From the NCBI GenBank assembly GCA_019358835.1, contig JAHHIH010000004.1, positions 62,001 through 126,000 on the forward strand: 64,000 nucleotides of DNA. The letters run 5' to 3'. Each line of letters begins with the position of its first letter. The stretch's first letter is position 1. Positions 24,541-35,698 of the stretch are shown in pieces. A model generated the notes under the pieces. The model did no database searches. It saw only the letters and a list, made by a program, of their open reading frames with translations, and was not told the DNA's origin. This DNA is from Tildeniella torsiva UHER 1998/13D (GTDB taxonomy: Bacteria; Cyanobacteriota; Cyanobacteriia; Phormidesmidales; Phormidesmidaceae). A program made the position numbers and the translations under genes.

Positions 24541-24740
24541 GGGTTTAGAAATGATGACTGCCCTAAATTGTAGGTTTAATCCACCAGTAAGCGGGCGATA
24601 AGCGGAGAAGAATTCCGAATAAAGGGAGGTTTAGTAGCAGCGGTTACTTTCCAATCGTTAAGCAATTGCTAAGCCTATTAGTGCATCAACCGTCAGCTCA
24701 AGTCACCAGTCACTCAACTAGTTTTATATAGACAAACGGT

Positions 24741-24873
24741 TTCTAGGGTTCCGGCTTTCCTCAGCCTTGGGAAGGCGTCTGGTCCGAGAGAAACCGCCAG
24801 AAAACCGTTAGCCCTGCATCAACAGCAGCGGCTAATGGCATCTGGTACACGGCGGGATAAAAGCCCGGGAGGA
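24741..24873 (+). promoter_or_regulatory. Guanidine-I (ykkC subtype 1) riboswitch aptamer
   Basis: The conserved ykkC blocks occur in order: TCTAGGGTTCCGG (24742-24754), CTGGTCCGAGAGAAA (24779-24793) and ACACGGCGGGATAAAAGCCC (24847-24866), ending in GGGAGG. Between the first two blocks lies a hairpin stem (GCCTT...AAGGC), and a longer variable arm separates the second and third blocks, as in known members. The third block has the form of the guanidine-sensing subtype, which usually activates transcription when guanidine is bound. It precedes the glnT-like ligase and transporter operon. Confidence 0.9.
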
Positions 24874-24915
24874 TAGCGAAGCAGCACTTCGTCATTCTCT
24901 CGGGCGCTGTTTTTT
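24862..24915 (+). terminator. Riboswitch-controlled transcription terminator
   Basis: GCCCGGGAG (24863-24871), which is part of the aptamer's last conserved block, can pair with CTCTCGGGC (24897-24905), with an inner 5-bp stem CGAAG/CTTCG, followed by six T at 24910-24915. Because the left arm is needed by the folded aptamer, ligand binding should prevent the terminator and turn the operon on. Confidence 0.85.
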
Positions 24916-24933
24916 GCGCCATTTCCCAAAACG

Positions 24934-25004
24934 ACAATAATTTCTCTCTCAAACCACCCACCTATCTACTCACTCATCCACCCACCCACCCACTCATCCA
25001 CCCC
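24934..25004 (+). other. Guanine-free C/T-rich leader before glnT-like gene
   Basis: All 71 bases between the riboswitch terminator region and the ATG lack G, and the second half is a run of CCCA/CTCA-like units. There is no Shine-Dalgarno sequence. Similar leaders precede three other genes in the window. Confidence 0.55.
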
Positions 25005-26366
25005 ATGCCCACCCCCCTCACTCCTGAAATCGAAGCACTCAAATCTTCCCTGGAGGCAAAGGGCGTTAAATACGCCCTAGCCAGCTACGTGGATATCCAC
25101 GGCATGGGCAAGGCCAAAATGGTGCCGCTCGCTCACCTGGGTCAGATGATGGCGGGTTCAGAGCTATTTACCGGTGCGGCACTGGATGGGGTGCCCCAGG
25201 AGATTAGCGATGAGGAAGTGGCGGCGATGCCCGACCCGGCCTCAGCTACGGTGCTGCCCTGGAAGCCTGAAGTCGCCTGGTTTGCCAGTGATCTCTACCT
25301 GAAGGGGCAACCCTTTGAGGCCTGTTGCCGCACCATTCTCAAGCAAATGCTGGCCAAGGCGGCGGCGATGGGATTCACCTTTAACCTGGGCATAGAGACC
25401 GAGTTCTTTATGCTCAAAGAGCACGCCGACGGTAGCTTTGGGCCGGTGAGCGATCGCGACCACTTGGCCAAACCCTGCTACGACCTGCCCAGCCTGCTCG
25501 ACAACGCCCCCTGGCTGAGCGAGCTGGTCGAGTACATGAACGATCTGGGCTGGGATGTCTATTCTTTTGACCACGAAGATGCCAACGGCCAGTTTGAAAC
25601 CGACTTTGCCTACAGCGATGCCCTGACCATGGCTGATCGCCTCACCTTCTTTCGGCTGATGGTCAAAGAAATCGCCCGCAAGCACGGCTACTTCGCCAGC
25701 TTTATGCCCAAGCCCTTTGGCGATCGCACCGGCAGCGGAGCCCACTACAACATGTCTCTGGCAGACATCGCAACCGGGCAAAACCTGTTTGAAGATGCGG
25801 ACGACCCACGCGGCTGCAAGCTATCGAAGCTGGGCTACCAGTTTATTGCCGGGGTGCTGCGCCATGCCAAGGCGATCTGCGCTGTCACCTGCCCTACGGT
25901 CAACAGCTATAAGCGACTGCTGCGCCAGGGCAGCATGTCGGGCTTTACCTGGGCTCCGGTCTATATTTGCTACGGCAACAACAACCGCACTAACATGCTG
26001 CGAATTCCCCTGGCGGGGGGCCGGGTCGAGTGCCGTGCCGCCGATATTGCCACTAACCCTTACCTTGGGGCGGCGATGATTTTGGCTGCGGGGCTAGAGG
26101 GCATTGCCGAGGGGCTCGACCCTGGTGCGCCCCACACCGAGAACATGTACAACTATTCCCTGAGTGACCTGAAGACGATGGGTATCGACATGCTGCCCCG
26201 CACGCTGCAAGAGGCGATCGACGCCTTTGAGGTCGATTCTCTGAGTCAGGCAGTGATGGGGCCGCTGATGTACCAGACCTACATCGACTTTCGCCGCCAG
26301 GAATGGGAGGAGTACCATACCCACATTTCTGACTGGGAAATTAAGCGCTATCTGAAGTTTTTCTAG
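25005..26366 (+). CDS. glnT: Type III glutamine-synthetase-like ligase (GlnT family)
   Basis: A 453-residue member of the glutamine synthetase superfamily, which joins glutamate to an amine through a gamma-glutamyl phosphate. The core motifs are present: SYVDIHGMGKAK (N-terminal beta-grasp), LGIETEFFML (metal-binding Glu131 and Glu133), SFDHEDANGQFE, GDRTGSGAHYNMSL (His247), NSYKRLL, NNNRTNMLRIP and VECRAADIATNPYL. It groups by sequence pattern with the GlnT/type III enzymes and not with the housekeeping GlnA. Several relatives use amines other than ammonia (for example methylamine, making gamma-glutamylmethylamide). As first gene behind a guanidine-I riboswitch and next to a transporter, guanidine or a guanidino amine is a plausible substrate; this is inference. 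Confidence 0.88.
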   Translation: MPTPLTPEIEALKSSLEAKGVKYALASYVDIHGMGKAKMVPLAHLGQMMAGSELFTGAALDGVPQEISDEEVAAMPDPASATVLPWKPEVAWFASDLYLKGQPFEACCRTILKQMLAKAAAMGFTFNLGIETEFFMLKEHADGSFGPVSDRDHLAKPCYDLPSLLDNAPWLSELVEYMNDLGWDVYSFDHEDANGQFETDFAYSDALTMADRLTFFRLMVKEIARKHGYFASFMPKPFGDRTGSGAHYNMSLADIATGQNLFEDADDPRGCKLSKLGYQFIAGVLRHAKAICAVTCPTVNSYKRLLRQGSMSGFTWAPVYICYGNNNRTNMLRIPLAGGRVECRAADIATNPYLGAAMILAAGLEGIAEGLDPGAPHTENMYNYSLSDLKTMGIDMLPRTLQEAIDAFEVDSLSQAVMGPLMYQTYIDFRRQEWEEYHTHISDWEIKRYLKFF

Positions 26367-26446
26367 CGGCGCGGCCTTCGCCCCAGCGGCGTCCAAATTT
26401 CCCCACAGCTTTCCCTGTAGTTTTTGAGTCTTAAATATCCATTGCC

Positions 26447-27490
26447 ATGAAACGACGTACCTTTCTACCCACGCTTTTTGCTTTCTTTTGCAGTCTGTTG
26501 ATTACCGTTAGCTGCGCCCAAACTACCCCCCAGGCCGACACCCCCGCCGATGTGCCCGCGACCGCGACTACCGGTGAACCCGTGAAGCTCGGCTACAGCA
26601 GCTGGGCGGGTTGGTGGCCTTGGGCGATCGCCGCCGAAGAGGGCCTATTCGAGAAAAATGGAGCCAACGTCGAGCTGATCTGGTTTGACGGCTACCTGGA
26701 GTCGATGCAGGCTCTGGCCGCCGGACAGCTCGACGCCAACAGCCAAACCCTCAACGACACCATCTCCTTCGCCGGGGATGCGGTTAACGGCATGGTGGCG
26801 GTGCTGGTCAACGACAACTCCGCCGGTAACGACAAGGTGATTGTGGCCGAGGGCATCGACACCGCCGCCGATCTGGCGGGCAAAAGCGTCGCCCTCGAAG
26901 AAGGCGTGGTGGGCGACTTTTTGCTCACCCTGGCATTGAAAGATGCTGGATTAAGCCGCTCTGATGTAGAAATTAAGAACCTGGAAACCGGGGCCGCCGC
27001 CACCGCCTTTGCCGCCGGACAGGTAGACGGCTTTGCGGGCTGGGTACCCTTCTGGGAAACGGCGCTCTCCCGCGAGGGCAGCAAGGAACTGGTGACCTCG
27101 GCAGAATATCCCGGCGCGATTCCTGACCTGCTGGTGGTCAGCCAAAAGCTGATTGACAGCCGCCCTGACCAAGTGCAGGCCCTGGTGAATACCTGGTTCG
27201 ACATTTTGGCCTTTATCGAAACCAACCCCGATCGGGCCAACGAAATTATGGCGAAGCGAGCCAGCGTCAGCGACGCCGAGTTTGATAAGTACACCAAGGG
27301 CACCAAAATTTTCACCATTGAAGAGAACCTGGAAGCCTTTAGCGCTGGGGGCGACGACATGAAGTACATGCCCTACGCCGCCCAGCAAATGGCCGACTTT
27401 ATGGTGGAGACTGAGTTCATCCCCGAAGCGCCTGACCTGGAGGCCATTCTTGATGACCAGTTCGTCAAGGCCTACTCCGCCGAGAAGTAG
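26447..27490 (+). CDS. NitT/TauT-type ABC substrate-binding lipoprotein
   Basis: A 347-residue periplasmic binding protein. A signal peptide with lipobox ITVSC anchors it to the membrane through Cys at about residue 24. An Ala/Thr/Pro linker follows, then the NMT1/SsuA-like fold beginning VKLGYSSWAGWWPWAIAAEEGLF and the domain-closing AAFAAGQVDGFAGWVPFWE. Family members bind sulfonates, nitrate, bicarbonate, thiamine precursors or, in some riboswitch-linked systems such as the Synechocystis Sll1080-1082 importer, guanidine. The many Trp and acidic residues near the cleft (SSWAGWWPW, IWFDGYLES) would suit a small cation, which is inference. It follows glnT by 80 bases in the same direction. 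Confidence 0.9.
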   Translation: MKRRTFLPTLFAFFCSLLITVSCAQTTPQADTPADVPATATTGEPVKLGYSSWAGWWPWAIAAEEGLFEKNGANVELIWFDGYLESMQALAAGQLDANSQTLNDTISFAGDAVNGMVAVLVNDNSAGNDKVIVAEGIDTAADLAGKSVALEEGVVGDFLLTLALKDAGLSRSDVEIKNLETGAAATAFAAGQVDGFAGWVPFWETALSREGSKELVTSAEYPGAIPDLLVVSQKLIDSRPDQVQALVNTWFDILAFIETNPDRANEIMAKRASVSDAEFDKYTKGTKIFTIEENLEAFSAGGDDMKYMPYAAQQMADFMVETEFIPEAPDLEAILDDQFVKAYSAEK

Positions 27491-27574
27491 CCGTTGATGC
27501 ATGCCCCCATCGCCATTCTGTGGATGATGGGGGTGACTGCTTAGTAGGTTTGTTGTACGTTTGGGCTAACCCCT

Positions 27575-28417
27575 GTGACTCCTGCCTCCCCATCGTTTTC
27601 CACCGCGCCCCGGTCTACCCAAGGCATGAAACCCAGCGTCTTTTGGCGACTGGCCGATGACATTCCCAAGCCGATGAGCACCGCGCTGATGGTGCTCTCC
27701 ATCGCGGTGCCCTTTGCCCTCTGGTGGCTCGTGGCCAGCCTAGATCTGGTGAATGACAAGTTTTTGCCGTCACCATTGCAGGTGGCCCAGGCATTGGGGC
27801 GGCTGTGGACAGATGGTTTTTTGGTGGGCGATACCGCCGCTAGCATTATGCGGGTGACGGTGGGCTTTGCGCTGGCGGCCCTGGTGTCGGTGCCCATTGG
27901 TATTGCCATGGGAGCCTTTGCTAGCGTGCGATCGCTGCTCGAGCCGATCATCGGTGTGGTGCGCTATATGCCGCCCCCGGCCTTCATTCCTCTGCTGGTG
28001 ATCTACCTAGGTTTGGGGGAAGCGCCCAAAATCGCCCTGATCTTTATGGGCACGGTGTTCTTCAACATCCTGATGATCATGGATGCGGTGAAGTTTGTAC
28101 CCAAAGCTCTGCTCGAAACCACTTACACCCTGGGCGGACAGCGGCGACAGGCGCTGTTTCAGGTGATTACCCCCTACGTGGTACCCAACATTATCGACAC
28201 CTTTCGTATCAACATTGCTACCTCTTGGAGCCTGGTAGTGGTGGCGGAGCTGGTGGCGGCAGAAAATGGTTTAGGAAAACGAATCGTGCTGGCCCAAAAG
28301 TTTTTTAACACCGACGAAATCTTTGCCTGCCTAATCATCCTCGGCGTAATCGGCTTTGCTCTGGATCTATCGCTGCGGGGGTTGATGAAAGCCACCTGTA
28401 AATGGGCGGTAGATTGA
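27575..28417 (+). CDS. NitT/TauT-type ABC transporter permease
   Basis: Inner-membrane permease of the importer, 280 residues from a GTG at 27575 or 263 from the ATG at 27626. Six helices are visible. The family patterns are LASLDLVNDKFLPSPLQV (start of the periplasmic loop), VRYMPPPAFIPLLVIYLGLGE and the EAA loop (TTYTLGGQRRQALFQVITPYVVPNI), with TSWSLVVVAELVAAENGLG near the end. It follows the binding protein by 84 bases, and the ATPase gene comes 270 bases later, an unusually large gap that holds a palindromic repeat. Confidence 0.92.
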   Translation: MTPASPSFSTAPRSTQGMKPSVFWRLADDIPKPMSTALMVLSIAVPFALWWLVASLDLVNDKFLPSPLQVAQALGRLWTDGFLVGDTAASIMRVTVGFALAALVSVPIGIAMGAFASVRSLLEPIIGVVRYMPPPAFIPLLVIYLGLGEAPKIALIFMGTVFFNILMIMDAVKFVPKALLETTYTLGGQRRQALFQVITPYVVPNIIDTFRINIATSWSLVVVAELVAAENGLGKRIVLAQKFFNTDEIFACLIILGVIGFALDLSLRGLMKATCKWAVD

Positions 28418-28598
28418 GCGATCGCCTTTCCCCAGTTTGTGAGGTGCGCGATTTCCAGATATATCTCTCCAGATGCTTGCGTTCTCAGTTTCACCCTATT
28501 AATAACCCCCTTAAAAAGTGGGGCAGGGGGGATCAAAGCAGGGTATCCCACCCCATCAAACTTTCTCTGTTTATCCTGAATCCGCCTCAATCCAGCTT

Positions 28599-28620
28599 TG
28601 GTGGGCACTGCCCACCCTAC
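28599..28620. repeat. Palindromic intergenic repeat of the CACCCTAC type
   Basis: TGGTGGGCACTGCCCACCCT then AC. A nearly identical copy, with one base changed in the centre, lies at 30704-30725. It separates the permease and ATPase genes. Confidence 0.7.
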
Positions 28621-28687
28621 GGTTCACCCCATCAGCCATCTACCCCATCACTCCCTAACCCATCCACCCCCTACCCCTCTCCCCACC

Positions 28688-29461
28688 ATGCACTTAGAAA
28701 TCAACAATCTCAGCAAGCAGTTCGACACTTCCCAAGGGTCGGTGCTGGCGCTCGATGACATCAACATGCACGTTGAGACCGGCGAATTTGTCTGTGCTGT
28801 GGGAGCCTCAGGCTCCGGCAAATCGACGCTGCTGCGGCTAGTGGCGGGGTTAGATATGCCCACGACGGGGGAGATTACGGTGGATGGTCAGGCGGTGACT
28901 GGGCCAGGATCCGATCGCGGCATGATCTTCCAAAGCTACACCCTGTATCCCTGGATGTCGGTGCAGAAAAACGTGGAGTTTGGCCTCAAGCTCCAGGGCG
29001 TGGGGCCAAAGGAGCGGCGGGAAATGGCCTCCTACTATTTAGATGTGGTGGGGCTGACCAAATTTGCGCGATCGCTGCCCAAGCAGCTCTCTGGCGGCAT
29101 GAAACAGCGGGTGGCGATCGCCCGCACCCTGGCCTCACGACCCAAAATTATGCTGATGGATGAGCCCTTTGGCGCGCTAGATGTGCAGACCAAAGAAACC
29201 ATGCAGCAGTTCATGCTCGACCTGTGGAACCGCACCGGGGTCAGCATTTTGATGATTACCCACGATGTCGATGAGGCAGTGTTTCTCTCCCAGCGCATCT
29301 ATGTGCTGACGGCTCACCCCGGCACTATTCAGCGAGAGGTGTTTGTGGATTTGCCCAGCGATCGCGATTACACGATTCGTCGCGATCGCGCTTTCCAAGA
29401 CACCCGCGAAGGCATCATGGATCTGCTGCGGGGAAAGACGGCTCCGGCGTTGGTGAGCTGA
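28688..29461 (+). CDS. NitT/TauT-type ABC transporter ATP-binding subunit
   Basis: A 257-residue ATPase of the SsuB/TauB class that powers the importer. Walker A is VGASGSGKSTLLRLVAGLD (about residues 38-56), the Q-loop is IFQSYTLYPWMSV, the ABC signature is LSGGMKQRVAIARTLA, Walker B is IMLMDEPFGALD, and the H-loop is ITHDVDEAV. The ATG at 28688 (MHLEINNLSKQF) is the natural family start, although the open frame extends back 30 codons through a C/T-rich leader. The stop is 16 bases before the Rieske oxygenase start, so these two are surely co-transcribed. Confidence 0.93.
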   Translation: MHLEINNLSKQFDTSQGSVLALDDINMHVETGEFVCAVGASGSGKSTLLRLVAGLDMPTTGEITVDGQAVTGPGSDRGMIFQSYTLYPWMSVQKNVEFGLKLQGVGPKERREMASYYLDVVGLTKFARSLPKQLSGGMKQRVAIARTLASRPKIMLMDEPFGALDVQTKETMQQFMLDLWNRTGVSILMITHDVDEAVFLSQRIYVLTAHPGTIQREVFVDLPSDRDYTIRRDRAFQDTREGIMDLLRGKTAPALVS

Positions 29462-29477
29462 TGGGGAGTGAAAGCTG

Positions 29478-30629
29478 ATGGTTTCTAGTCTGCCGCTGCT
29501 ATGGTCAACGACCGACCCTCAGGGGTTATCGCCAGCTCCCCCCGATGCCCACGGGCTACCGGAGCGGTTTTTGCTCACCGCCGACCACTACACCAATCCT
29601 GTATGGATCCCGATTGAGCAGCGGGCGATCTTTCGCCGCACCTGGCTCTACGTGGGTGATGGCGAACTCCTCCAGCCGGGGATGGTGTGGGCCAGGTCGG
29701 TGGCGGGCGCTCCTCTGCTGATCGTGCGCGACAACGAGGGCGAGCTGCGGGCCTTTTACAACCTCTGTCCCCATCGGGCGGCAATTTTGTCGCCTCAAGC
29801 AGGTATTCACCCTTGCCAAAAGCTGGTGTGCCCTTACCACGCCTGGGTTTATGACCTCTCAGGGAATTTGGTTGGGGTGCCTTCTCAGAATCAGTTTTCA
29901 GAGTCGTTTGAGAAGCAGGAGTTTGCTCTGCGATCGCTGCGGCTAGAGACCTGGTCGGGCTTTATGTTTGTCTGCTTTGACGACAGTGCGCCGCCACTGG
30001 TGGAGTTTCTGGGCAGCATCCCCCAGCACCTGGGGCAGCACCGCACCGCTGCTACCCAACCGCTAGGGGCCAAGCAGTACACCGTCGCCTGCAACTGGAA
30101 GAACTACCACGACAACACCCTGTGCGACTACCACGTGGCGATCGCCCACCGCACCACCCTCAACCAGGTGCAAGGCCCCATTCGTCACTACCAGCACCAG
30201 CTTGAGCGCTTCGTCAACCTGCTCTATACCCCCACCACCGCCGACTGGCAGGCCGAAAACCCCATCTTGCCCACCCTCAAAGGCCGCAGCCGCGAGGGAT
30301 TTTTTACCTATGGTATCTACCCCAACCTGCACCTGCTGGGGCTGCCCAACGGCCTACTGGCCTGGCTGCACATCGAGCCGCTCACCGTCGAGTCTTGCCA
30401 GGTTTCGCTTGACCTCTACGGCGACCCCGAATTTTGCCCACCTACTGAAACCCTGCTGGCCGAATTTGAAGCCTTTATGCAGGAAGACATGGTGCTCACC
30501 GAAAGCGTGCAGCAGGGCTACGCCAGCGGTGCCTACACCCCCGGCCCCGTGAATGGTCTAGAAGCGCGAATCATTCACCAACAAAAACTGATCTGGGACG
30601 CGCTTGCAGCCGAAGGTGCGGCTGATTAG
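29478..30629 (+). CDS. Rieske-type non-heme iron oxygenase, alpha subunit
   Basis: A 383-residue oxygenase. The Rieske [2Fe-2S] site is CPHR (Cys97, His99) and CPYHAW (Cys118, His121). The mononuclear iron site lies in NWKNYHDNTLCDYHVAIAH (His219, His224); the third ligand should come from the C-terminal part. The family includes glycine-betaine, choline and carnitine oxygenases and aryl dioxygenases, and the C-terminal TESVQQGYASGAY pattern is like the small-amine branch. One oddity: the acidic residue that normally sits three residues before the first iron His is replaced by Cys216, with Asp217 next to it. No reductase gene is adjacent. Position in the riboswitch operon suggests it oxidises a guanidino compound or its gamma-glutamyl derivative (inference). 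Confidence 0.9.
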   Translation: MVSSLPLLWSTTDPQGLSPAPPDAHGLPERFLLTADHYTNPVWIPIEQRAIFRRTWLYVGDGELLQPGMVWARSVAGAPLLIVRDNEGELRAFYNLCPHRAAILSPQAGIHPCQKLVCPYHAWVYDLSGNLVGVPSQNQFSESFEKQEFALRSLRLETWSGFMFVCFDDSAPPLVEFLGSIPQHLGQHRTAATQPLGAKQYTVACNWKNYHDNTLCDYHVAIAHRTTLNQVQGPIRHYQHQLERFVNLLYTPTTADWQAENPILPTLKGRSREGFFTYGIYPNLHLLGLPNGLLAWLHIEPLTVESCQVSLDLYGDPEFCPPTETLLAEFEAFMQEDMVLTESVQQGYASGAYTPGPVNGLEARIIHQQKLIWDALAAEGAAD

Positions 30630-30843: not shown

Positions 30844-31557
30844 ATGGCCTCCAACCCTTTCCTCGGCGTCTGGCAACGCCGCTCCATCCAGTTCGACCAA
30901 GGCCCCGTCGAAACCGGCCAATCGGTTCTGTGGATTCAGGCTGAAACCGACTTTGCCGACGTGCGTAGCGCTCCCTTTGCGGGACGGCTGACGCCGGAGC
31001 GGTACCGGGGGATGGACTGGCGATCGCGCTTTGACGCCGATCTGCTGGGCTTTGCTGGCACCTTTAGCTGGTCTGAGATCCCTCCGACCTGTACCTGGCA
31101 CCATTGCCTGGCCCTCACCCCCCGCCAGTGGCCCGACACCAGCAATTATCACTGGCTGGGATCAGACGAATTCTTAGAACAGGGCACCTGTGAGGATGAT
31201 GAGGGTGGTCTTCACCCCTTTGTTGAGCACTGGTATCGCCTGCACCCCGACCCGGCGCAGGTGTGGCGGCTGGATCGGGGCGAACACCAGGGGCAGGCCC
31301 TGAGGATGGGCAACTGGGCCGTCTTGGTGCATCAATGGCATGATTCCCTAACGGCTGCCCCTTTGGATGGGGAGACCTTTCGCGCGTTTTCTGCTACGGC
31401 CTGGGAGTATCGGCAGGGCACCTGGCAGGCTCTATTTGGGACGGAGGCCAACTTGGGCATCCCGCCGCAGTGGACGCCGCTTGACTTGGATGACCCATTA
31501 GGCCCGTGGCGGCTGGACTGCTCGGTGCCAGCGAACCGGAGCCTGGAGCTTAACTAA
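30844..31557 (+). CDS. Hypothetical protein, possible lipocalin-like barrel
   Basis: A 237-residue soluble protein with a high Trp content and repeated beta patterns: GVWQRRSIQFD, TGQSVLWIQAETDFADVR, GFAGTFSWSEIPPTCTWHH, VWRLDRGEHQGQALRMGNW and FRAFSATAWEYRQG. The opening W-x-R-x-S-I and the D-V-R motif resemble the HRI1/lipocalin-like barrel family, which I cannot confirm. No signal peptide. The ATG at 30844 is chosen over the longer frame because the upstream part encodes a low-complexity stretch over a G-free leader. It runs in the same direction as the Rieske gene, 214 bases further on past two repeats, so it may or may not be part of the guanidine-responsive operon. Confidence 0.65.
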   Translation: MASNPFLGVWQRRSIQFDQGPVETGQSVLWIQAETDFADVRSAPFAGRLTPERYRGMDWRSRFDADLLGFAGTFSWSEIPPTCTWHHCLALTPRQWPDTSNYHWLGSDEFLEQGTCEDDEGGLHPFVEHWYRLHPDPAQVWRLDRGEHQGQALRMGNWAVLVHQWHDSLTAAPLDGETFRAFSATAWEYRQGTWQALFGTEANLGIPPQWTPLDLDDPLGPWRLDCSVPANRSLELN

Positions 31558-35102: not shown

Positions 35103-35447
35103 TTATCTTATGTCGTCTGGGTCTAATTCACCGAGGGGACGCTTCGCTGCGTGACGAATATGGAGAATACGCACGGTGGGGACTTCCACGTCTTCAAGAA
35201 TGGTGAAAAGCACTCGATATTTACTGCCTCCCTTGCCATAGAGCAGTTGACGAATCTCTTGACTAAACGCGTCATTCTCCCGTGCTAGTGGGCAGCGTTT
35301 GGGCATGGTGGCCAAGGATGCGATCGCCTGGAGCAAACCCTGATACCATTGCCGAGCAGCAGGTTGAGAAGTTCGCTGAGCCATCCACAGAAAAGCTTGA
35401 TCGGCTTCGGCCTCTGCTATGCTGGCAATCTCAATGCGGTAAGTCAT
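35103..35447 (-). CDS. RelE/ParE-family toxin
   Basis: A 114-residue basic protein. It begins MTYRIEIASIAEAEADQAFLW, the usual ParE helix, followed by AARQWYQGLLQAIASLATMPKRCPLA and the core strands RQLLYGKGGSKYRVLFTI and VRILHIRHAAKRPL. ParE relatives poison gyrase and RelE relatives cut mRNA on the ribosome; the His/Arg-rich last strand is compatible with either. It is second in a two-gene operon, overlapping the antitoxin stop by 4 bases. Length is a little above the family mean owing to a C-terminal tail. Confidence 0.85.
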   Translation of the reverse strand: MTYRIEIASIAEAEADQAFLWMAQRTSQPAARQWYQGLLQAIASLATMPKRCPLARENDAFSQEIRQLLYGKGGSKYRVLFTILEDVEVPTVRILHIRHAAKRPLGELDPDDIR

Positions 35448-35698
35448 GGATTGTGAGGCAGGTCATACTTACGCCTTTGTTCGGCAGCAAAGTCGTCAAA
35501 GTTGCGAAAATGACCTGCTTCAAAGTCGTTGAACCCTTGCTGAATGGCCTGAATTGCTGCTTGGGTGTCAGTATCTTCCCAGGTCAGAATATCAATCAGG
35601 AGTTCGGCAGCGACAATGGCTACATCCTGCCCCTGGCGCTGTGCTCTAGCCTGAAGTTTGGCTTCAAGTTCAGGCGGCAGAGAGACAATGATAGTCAT
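35444..35698 (-). CDS. Antitoxin of the RelE/ParE pair
   Basis: An 84-residue protein. The N-terminal MTIIVSLPPELEAKLQARAQRQGQD pattern is that of a ribbon-helix-helix-like DNA-binding antitoxin. The C-terminal acidic/aromatic segment (GFNDFEAGHFRNFDDFAAEQR) would wrap the toxin. It is the first gene of the operon and should also repress its own promoter. The start ATG at 35698 has only a weak upstream purine tract. The pair sits just downstream of the adenine deaminase gene. Confidence 0.8.
   Translation of the reverse strand: MTIIVSLPPELEAKLQARAQRQGQDVAIVAAELLIDILTWEDTDTQAAIQAIQQGFNDFEAGHFRNFDDFAAEQRRKYDLPHNP

Follow-up and report, generated by a model that had tools for sequence, protein, structure and literature searches.

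The window analysed here, 64,000 nucleotides of the cyanobacterium Tildeniella torsiva UHER 1998/13D (assembly GCA_019358835.1, contig JAHHIH010000004.1, positions 62,001 to 126,000 of the forward strand), contains a guanidine-I riboswitch followed by genes for a GlnT-type ligase, an ATP-binding cassette (ABC) importer of the NitT/TauT type, a Rieske oxygenase and an HRI1-like protein. We propose, with a probability of roughly 0.65, that this cluster is one part of a split guanidine regulon, in which substrates would be imported, methylguanidine would be demethylated by the Rieske oxygenase together with an MgdL-type lyase, and the guanidine set free would be degraded by the guanidine hydrolase GdmH and by urease. 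A sequence-only reading of positions 24741-30629 had already recognised the guanidine riboswitch and, under it, the ligase, the importer and the Rieske gene placed 16 bases after the ATPase gene, all of which hold. The extent was amended at both ends: the riboswitch match starts at 24732, and the cluster continues into the HRI1-like gene at 30844-31557, which had been left out.

The second part of the regulon lies elsewhere in the genome, which comprises 5.84 Mb in 48 contigs. The only further match to the guanidine-I riboswitch is at positions 9494-9599 of contig C40 (85.7 bits), and behind it are genes for a 398-aa ureohydrolase, GdmH, and then hypA and hypB. GdmH matches the solved structures 7esr and 7oi1, annotated as 'probable agmatinase 2', over 382 residues (E = 3.8e-249); we take these to be structures of the Synechocystis guanidinase. 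Urease alpha is also encoded, and on paper this genome has every step of the predicted route from guanidine through urea to ammonia. An organism without guanidine degradation is ruled out by GdmH and urease. A guanidine-carboxylase pair in the genome is likewise ruled out; the single DUF1989 match lies within a 636-aa frame on contig C44, and there is no pair. Gene calls and Pfam searches placed no gdmH-hypA-hypB in the window cluster. Thus, the earlier statement that no known guanidine-degrading enzyme is present is correct for the cluster but not for the genome.

We compared the cluster with 291 genomes of the same class, drawn by the tool, from which 60 ligase loci and 20 further loci were gene-called; significance tests on genome co-occurrence and on loci ignore relatedness. 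The fullest operon has the order gdmH-hypA-glnT-hypB-importer-Rieske (L123, L124). The same order without the Rieske gene is found in L116-L121, with two extra open reading frames in L116, and gdmH-hypAB-importer-Rieske without glnT is found in L171, L176-L178 and L188, while glnT is placed after hypB in L167 and L168. Importer binding-protein homologues in the relatives come after gdmH-hypAB. The window layout is repeated in five genomes of the same genus (L111-L115), and gdmH-hypA-hypB lies elsewhere in the genus (L003, L190). Given the single-operon versions in relatives and the split layout in the genus, the simplest reading is that one operon was split, with a riboswitch on each part.

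In a cmscan search, the guanidine-I riboswitch was the sole RNA family above its gathering score in the whole 64-kb window (83.8 bits against 63, E = 1.8e-13). Across 30 aligned guanidine-I elements from this and related genomes, the core columns are invariant and the consensus pairs of the aptamer covary, with 96.9% of cells paired and two-sided changes at 15 pairs; none of 500 shuffles reached as high a value, and sliding the 3' partners by 1-3 columns left at most 55% paired. Some of the elements used to build the RNA model R1 are among those it recovers, and each of these had first been identified with Rfam. The 3' segment of the aptamer (24863-24874) can double as the 5' arm of a long hairpin reaching 24905 (fold z = -5.96), after which TTTTTT follows at 24910-24915. 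This putative overlap of aptamer and terminator is the arrangement expected of an ON switch. The terminator received no score in a simple consensus scan, and a promoter scan upstream of the cluster found nothing.

The window Rieske protein is the only PF00848 match in the genome. Among 20 aligned relatives, C97, H99, C118, H121, D217 and D337 are invariant and H219 and H224 are present in at least 90%; by family precedent, these residues would be the ligands of the Rieske cluster and the mononuclear iron triad. The predicted structure (pLDDT 88.8) has two N-demethylases, carnitine monooxygenase CntA (6y8j) and stachydrine demethylase (4quq), as its nearest folds. Orthologues were accepted at a best match of E 1.1e-50 or better, with gene lists compiled by hand, and GdmH or a DUF1989 pair is present in 32 of the 33 genomes carrying one, compared with 171 of 291 overall. 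Such a cgdAB pair is defined by sequence only, as at least two DUF1989 matches of which the best has E below ~1e-55. By manual tally, 25 of the 33 orthologues lie ~10 kb or less from gdmH, a DUF1989 pair or a riboswitch, while four lie at contig ends (G056, G070, G250, G273). The Rieske gene is directly upstream of a riboswitch-led DUF1989 gene pair in L173-L175, and in L173 this pair is followed by a gene for a biotin-dependent, urea/guanidine carboxylase-type enzyme. In L125 and L160, the Rieske gene adjoins riboswitch and DUF1989 pair. As its orthologues occur alongside either route of degradation, guanidinase or guanidine carboxylase, the Rieske oxygenase most likely feeds guanidine to both.

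Published work fits methylguanidine as the proposed source. The comammox guanidinase formed no urea from methylguanidine, which according to its authors agrees with the cyanobacterial enzyme (PMC11410670, which prints 'methylguanine' at that place and methylguanidine in its methods). Moreover, the guanidine-I aptamer of Vreelandella boliviensis did not bind methylguanidine (PMC12508155). Methylguanidine would therefore be useless to a cell relying on GdmH until demethylated, and a demethylase would widen the range of usable substrates.

In V. boliviensis, the 2-oxoglutarate dioxygenase MgdH and the hypothetical protein MgdL convert methylguanidine to guanidine; MgdL was modelled with a beta-barrel, depends on Asp49 and Arg51 and is narrow for N-(hydroxymethyl)guanidine, for which slow spontaneous decay is also reported (PMC12508155). 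A profile of the HRI1-like protein gave matches in 20 of 390 genomes from the order of one gammaproteobacterium. Two of the loci, L305 and L307, have the order permease-ATPase-cgdA-cgdB-[guanidine-II riboswitch]-gca-[2-oxoglutarate dioxygenase]-[HRI1-like], followed in L307 by allophanate hydrolase, and residues 49 and 51 of their HRI1-like proteins are Asp and Arg, exactly as in the catalytic pair of MgdL. Because this gene order and these residues agree with the published mgdH-mgdL operon, we took the two proteins as MgdL; almost certainly they are, and MgdL was published as an N-(hydroxymethyl)guanidine lyase in 2025.

The window HRI1-like protein matches these MgdL proteins in hhalign (probability 97.5%, E 5.7e-12) and in BLASTP (28% identity, E 4e-11). 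Its D39-x-R41 aligns with their D49-x-R51, two Glu and three Trp are also kept, and its Asp39-x-Arg41 is invariant. A 2-oxoglutarate dioxygenase gene precedes the HRI1-like gene in L311 and L312 as well, near gca, cgd genes and guanidine-I riboswitches. HRI1-like genes lie beside the Rieske gene in the window genus, L125, L160 and L171, and beside another Rieske gene in L316. The structural model (pLDDT 74.5, moderate) has yeast YLR301w (3rby, E 5.4e-6) as its nearest fold; searches with HRI1-like proteins gave nothing in plasmids and, at the sequence level, no informative hit to a solved structure. In total, we conclude from these alignments that the window gene encodes, as judged by homology, an MgdL-family protein. 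Elsewhere, in the proteobacterial loci L274-L277, L302 and L303, an HRI1-like gene occurs with importer and SDR-like genes, in L274-L276 also with GlnT, and five of these six loci carry a gene ~28-33% identical (BLAST) to the creatininase-family gene described below.

We infer the regulation of the cluster and the substrates of its transporter as follows. On binding guanidine, the riboswitch would keep the 3' segment of its aptamer out of the terminator hairpin, switching on glnT, the ABC importer, the Rieske gene and probably the HRI1-like gene, while the second riboswitch on the other contig would turn on gdmH-hypA-hypB. The importer would take up guanidine and N-methylguanidine. The Rieske oxygenase would hydroxylate the N-methyl group, and the HRI1-like lyase of the MgdL type would split the resulting hemiaminal into guanidine and formaldehyde; we hold both of these reactions to be probable. 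GdmH, with nickel loaded by HypA/HypB, would convert guanidine to urea and ammonia, and urease would finish the route. The guanidine set free would also hold both riboswitches on. GlnT would glutamylate a small cationic amine of the pathway rather than ammonia, the best guess being guanidine or methylguanidine.

Several observations weigh against this reading. The HRI1-like gene starts 214 bases past the Rieske gene on the same strand, and a separate promoter may lie inside this gap. Of the 26 Rieske loci (the window and 25 others), 10 have an HRI1-like gene and 16 have none nearby, and the gene in L171 is interrupted by a stop or frameshift. The window protein barely passes the PF16815 (HRI1) cut-off and the four relatives tested fail at E 0.1, while the proteins serving as MgdL reference were recognised from operon layout and residue numbers and not from an accession. 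Four of the 33 Rieske orthologues lie away from guanidine genes (G103, G145, G171, G214). Finally, the full operons L123 and L124 (G002, G027) have no detectable guanidine-I riboswitch, and no guanidine riboswitch was found at 28 of 60 cyanobacterial ligase loci or at 25 of the 32 loci, each 8 kb or shorter, found by the DNA pattern described below.

The nearest solved relatives of the ligase by sequence are the glutamate-methylamine ligase 9qur (E 1.4e-128) and 7cql. Aligned to RhGmaS, the residues of which are described in PMC7948447, the window ligase has Thr56 and Trp316 in place of the ammonia-site Asp50' and the Glu of the Glu-flap, and it keeps the catalytic Asp177, Glu186 and Arg312 of gamma-glutamylmethylamide synthetase (GmaS) as D189, E198 and R328. 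Judged by these two replaced positions, an ammonia-using glutamine synthetase is ruled out. In the amine pocket, Gln175 is replaced by Ser187 and Asn188 by Asp200. The Ser/Asp pocket is present in 62 of 62 cyanobacterial orthologues, while in the same alignment Gln/Asn is present in all 12 sequences that are paralogues or GmaS references; the second GlnT of the window genome also retains Gln/Asn. As the pocket has gained a carboxylate, a guanidinium-type substrate is plausible. This supports in part the earlier proposal of an amide ligase acting on guanidine: the enzyme is not of the ammonia type, and glutamylation of guanidine or methylguanidine is a tentative assignment that we would not yet expect to hold.

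The Ser/Asp ligases are linked to guanidine riboswitches. A guanidine-I element occurs at 32 of 60 Ser/Asp-ligase loci and at none of 40 control loci (Fisher p = 1.2e-9, relatedness ignored). The controls, searched with the guanidine-I model only, were 40 of the first 50 listed Gln/Asn-type paralogues; the Gln/Asn pattern was found in 39, the 40th being unmatched by the pattern. Ten paralogues were passed over, seven in loci already fetched and three not fetched (G003, G134, G284), and among those seven loci an element is present only in L126, ~11 kb off and beyond the Ser/Asp gene. The riboswitch matches in L149 and two of those in L126 are weak. By script, 22 of 63 ligase genes directly follow the element within one gene run, and L112 was added by eye. 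Among the 65 genomes with the ligase (matches at or above ~58% identity, counting G250 and G028, where a contig end truncates the gene), 62 have GdmH or a cgdA/cgdB-type DUF1989 pair, compared with the 171 of 291 overall. As these genomes are already equipped with a known route or with the marker genes of one, the ligase is an addition and not a replacement.

Similar ligases occur beyond cyanobacteria. A DNA pattern for the ligase motif, made with GC-rich codons and already containing the Asp, is no census and tests Ser alone; it returned 32 loci, of which 29 are proteobacterial and one each belongs to a planctomycete, a mycobacterium and a Cyanobium. Ser is present in all 32 proteins, which are 62-71% identical to the window protein. 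The ligase lies downstream of a guanidine-I element in the same direction in L216, L218 and L219, while in L199, L207 and L221 such an element heads importer genes diverging from the ligase. In the planctomycete locus L195, there are two guanidine-II elements, and the ligase gene closely follows one of these. By these gene neighbourhoods, the Ser/Asp subfamily belongs, in part, to guanidine regulons, with two riboswitch classes in three phyla.

A creatininase-family gene is clustered with the Ser/Asp GlnT in L126, L127, L129, L133-L137, L139, L142, L143, L197, L201, L217 and L218, several of these clusters sitting behind a guanidine-I riboswitch together with a different NitT/TauT-type importer. 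PF02633 was found in the L126 and L218 proteins, which were scanned, and the others were assigned by similarity. The cyanobacterial proteins are 64-87% identical to that of L126 and those of L197, L201, L217 and L218, which include proteobacterial metagenome-assembled genomes, ~73%, while L195 and L214 have more distant ones; the creatininase-family genes of the window genome are just 26-32% identical to the GlnT-paired one. Other neighbours of the ligase are DUF1989 genes (L201, L202), an alpha/beta hydrolase and an isochorismatase-like hydrolase (L136). The alpha/beta hydrolase recurs beside the Rieske gene or GlnT in cyanobacteria and gammaproteobacteria (L123, L124, L125, L160, L194, L207, L221, L275, L276; PF00561 in L123, L160, L194 and L207, the remainder by similarity or eye) and could be an enzyme that removes a glutamyl group. 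It is doubtful, though worth stating, that the SFD...TDF GlnT subfamily comprises the first gamma-glutamylguanidine (or gamma-glutamyl-methylguanidine) synthetase, the acylguanidine being broken down by a creatininase-family, alpha/beta-hydrolase or isochorismatase-like amidohydrolase whose gene lies close by in many relatives. If so, guanidine would be activated by acylation, in parallel to its carboxylation by guanidine carboxylase, in a further branch of guanidine metabolism common to cyanobacteria, proteobacteria, planctomycetes and perhaps mycobacteria. Separately, L013 (C7:60000-78000 of the window genome) combines the Gln/Asn GlnT paralogue with a class-I glutamine amidotransferase (Pfam) and, by eye, an apparent iron alcohol dehydrogenase and an aldehyde dehydrogenase; it is perhaps a catabolic set for gamma-glutamylated amines.

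The sequence-only reading had proposed that the ligase makes gamma-glutamylguanidine from which the Rieske oxygenase releases nitrogen, replacing GdmH or guanidine carboxylase. Such a route would suit the presence of ligase and Rieske oxygenase within one riboswitch-led cluster, the additional Asp in the pocket could hold guanidinium, and in L127, L129, L131-L134, L141 and L145 Rieske genes other than that of the window accompany this ligase. A glutamine synthetase-like ligase and a Rieske oxygenase are also used on aniline. However, the route needs both enzymes, yet 15 of 33 Rieske genomes lack the ligase (including those of L171, L176-L178 and L188, and those of L173-L175 with the Rieske gene next to DUF1989 genes) and 47 of 65 ligase genomes lack the Rieske orthologue, so that one obligate route is ruled out. 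The finding of GdmH or a DUF1989 pair in nearly all ligase genomes is the opposite of what replacement predicts, and the window genome itself has GdmH and urease. We regard this route as highly improbable; N-demethylation in partnership with an MgdL-type lyase better accounts for the Rieske oxygenase. The clusters pairing this ligase with other Rieske genes (~30% identical to that of the window) had no guanidine-I element, and several have a creatininase-family gene and an SDR.

The Rieske oxygenase could instead N-dealkylate a larger guanidino compound, such as guanidinoacetate, creatine, guanidinobutyrate or agmatine, and still feed GdmH. The same co-location with guanidine genes would be expected, the solved fold relatives act, by their structure titles, on carboxylated methylamines, and plants form guanidine via homoarginine-6-hydroxylases (PMC11018352). 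We consider a larger substrate unlikely: the partner MgdL is reported as narrow for N-(hydroxymethyl)guanidine (PMC12508155), and no gene for the resulting aldehyde acids was seen in the window cluster. Equally unlikely is a role for the ligase in trapping methylamine as an ordinary gamma-glutamylmethylamide synthetase. GmaS enzymes are its closest solved relatives (9qur, 7cql), GmaS has lost the same ammonia-site residues and GmaS accepts several amines (PMC7948447); by contrast, the Ser/Asp replacement of Gln175/Asn188 is invariant in the 62 orthologues and absent from the second GlnT of the same genome, Ser is kept in all 32 pattern-found proteins (Asp being preset by the pattern), and the proposed pathway has no step producing methylamine. 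Finally, the possibility of a Rieske oxygenase that works alone, beside an HRI1-like gene unrelated to it, would fit the 16 of 26 Rieske loci without such a gene nearby and the slow spontaneous decay of the hemiaminal (PMC12508155). It is a distinctly poor prospect given that HRI1-like genes adjoin the Rieske gene in the window genus, L125, L160 and L171 (broken), another Rieske gene in L316, and 2-oxoglutarate dioxygenase genes in or near guanidine-carboxylase operons. We retain the split regulon with demethylation of methylguanidine as the favoured explanation.

The genes of the window cluster are all on the same strand, with gaps of 131, 80, 135, 270 and 16 bases in the order riboswitch, glnT, binding protein, permease, ATPase and Rieske gene. 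In a sequence search against solved structures, the importer binding protein matched binding proteins for sulphonate, nitrate and taurine as well as an exported protein without a name. Outside the cluster, two adjoining small genes at 35103-35698 on the reverse strand resemble, by eye, a toxin-antitoxin pair of the RelE/ParE type.

Table 1. Features of the guanidine riboswitch cluster, in coordinates of the window.
Feature	Position	Strand	Evidence
Guanidine-I (ykkC) riboswitch aptamer	24732-24873	+	Rfam RF00442, covariation in 30 aligned homologues
Putative intrinsic terminator, 5' arm = aptamer 3' segment (expression platform)	24863-24915	+	Sequence and fold
GlnT/GmaS-like gamma-glutamyl amide ligase, altered amine pocket (S187, D200)	25005-26366	+	TIGR03105, 591 bits (cut-off 469.6)
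Substrate-binding protein of NitT/TauT-type ABC importer (SsuA family)	26447-27490	+	TIGR01728, 276 bits (cut-off 163.5)
ABC importer permease	about 27626-28417	+	PF00528
ABC importer ATPase	28688-29461	+	PF00005
Rieske oxygenase, proposed methylguanidine (N-alkylguanidine) N-demethylase	29478-30629	+	PF00355 (Rieske) and PF00848 (Ring_hydroxyl_A)
HRI1-like beta-barrel protein, proposed N-(hydroxymethyl)guanidine lyase (MgdL family)	30844-31557	+	PF16815, 28 bits (cut-off 27)

A Rieske gene downstream of a gdmH-hypAB-importer cluster is already in print for marine Synechococcus and Cyanobium, where the only suggestion in the available text is iron as a cofactor (PMC10119275). Neither the demethylase nor the ligase link was reported in the open-access literature searched on guanidine riboswitches, Rieske oxygenases, methylguanidine, glutamylguanidine and creatininase; by term search of the text available, a 2025 review (PMC12186494) contains none of 'glutamine synthetase', 'Rieske' and 'glutamyl', and the main text of PMC12508155 contains neither 'Rieske' nor 'glutamine synthetase'. 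We take this silence as weak evidence of novelty. If the favoured explanation is correct, the use of methylated guanidine shown in Vreelandella would extend to cyanobacteria, in which an iron-sulphur oxygenase could take electrons from photosynthesis. It would give testable functions to HRI1-like proteins and to the Rieske oxygenase noted beside the marine Synechococcus clusters and linked to iron limitation (PMC10119275). Moreover, the analysis draws attention to a ligase subfamily in which the pocket change is invariant and which is linked to guanidine riboswitches in three phyla; the literature searched assigns no role to this subfamily.

Among known systems, the GdmH operon of Synechocystis PCC 6803 (sll1077, hypA, hypB, sll1080/81/82) and the marine eCAG (PMC10119275) share with T. 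torsiva the guanidine-I riboswitch, the importer type and the GdmH orthologue, and most marine Synechococcus/Cyanobium versions of the eCAG also have a downstream Rieske gene, as the window does. By contrast with the Synechocystis operon, the system of T. torsiva is split into two riboswitch-led loci, and none of the glnT, Rieske and HRI1-like genes of the window is named for Synechocystis in the part of PMC8390497 available. MgdH/MgdL of Vreelandella boliviensis (PMC12508155) share a guanidine riboswitch, an importer and an oxygenase followed by an HRI1-like protein with Asp-x-Arg, whereas the oxygenase there is a 2-oxoglutarate/Fe(II) dioxygenase and not a Rieske enzyme, and guanidine carboxylase takes the place of the guanidinase. 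GmaS (RhGmaS 7cql, PMC7948447; 9qur) shares with the window ligase the family, the loss of Asp50' and the Glu-flap and the catalytic Asp, Glu and Arg; it differs in having Gln175/Asn188 where the window pocket has Ser187/Asp200, and the window type is encoded in guanidine regulons. Finally, the Rieske N-demethylases CntA (6y8j) and stachydrine demethylase (4quq) are the nearest folds of the window Rieske protein, in which the presumed metal ligands are intact; however, identity over the fold alignment is ~23-27%, Asp217 stands where CntA has Glu, and the genomic setting is different.

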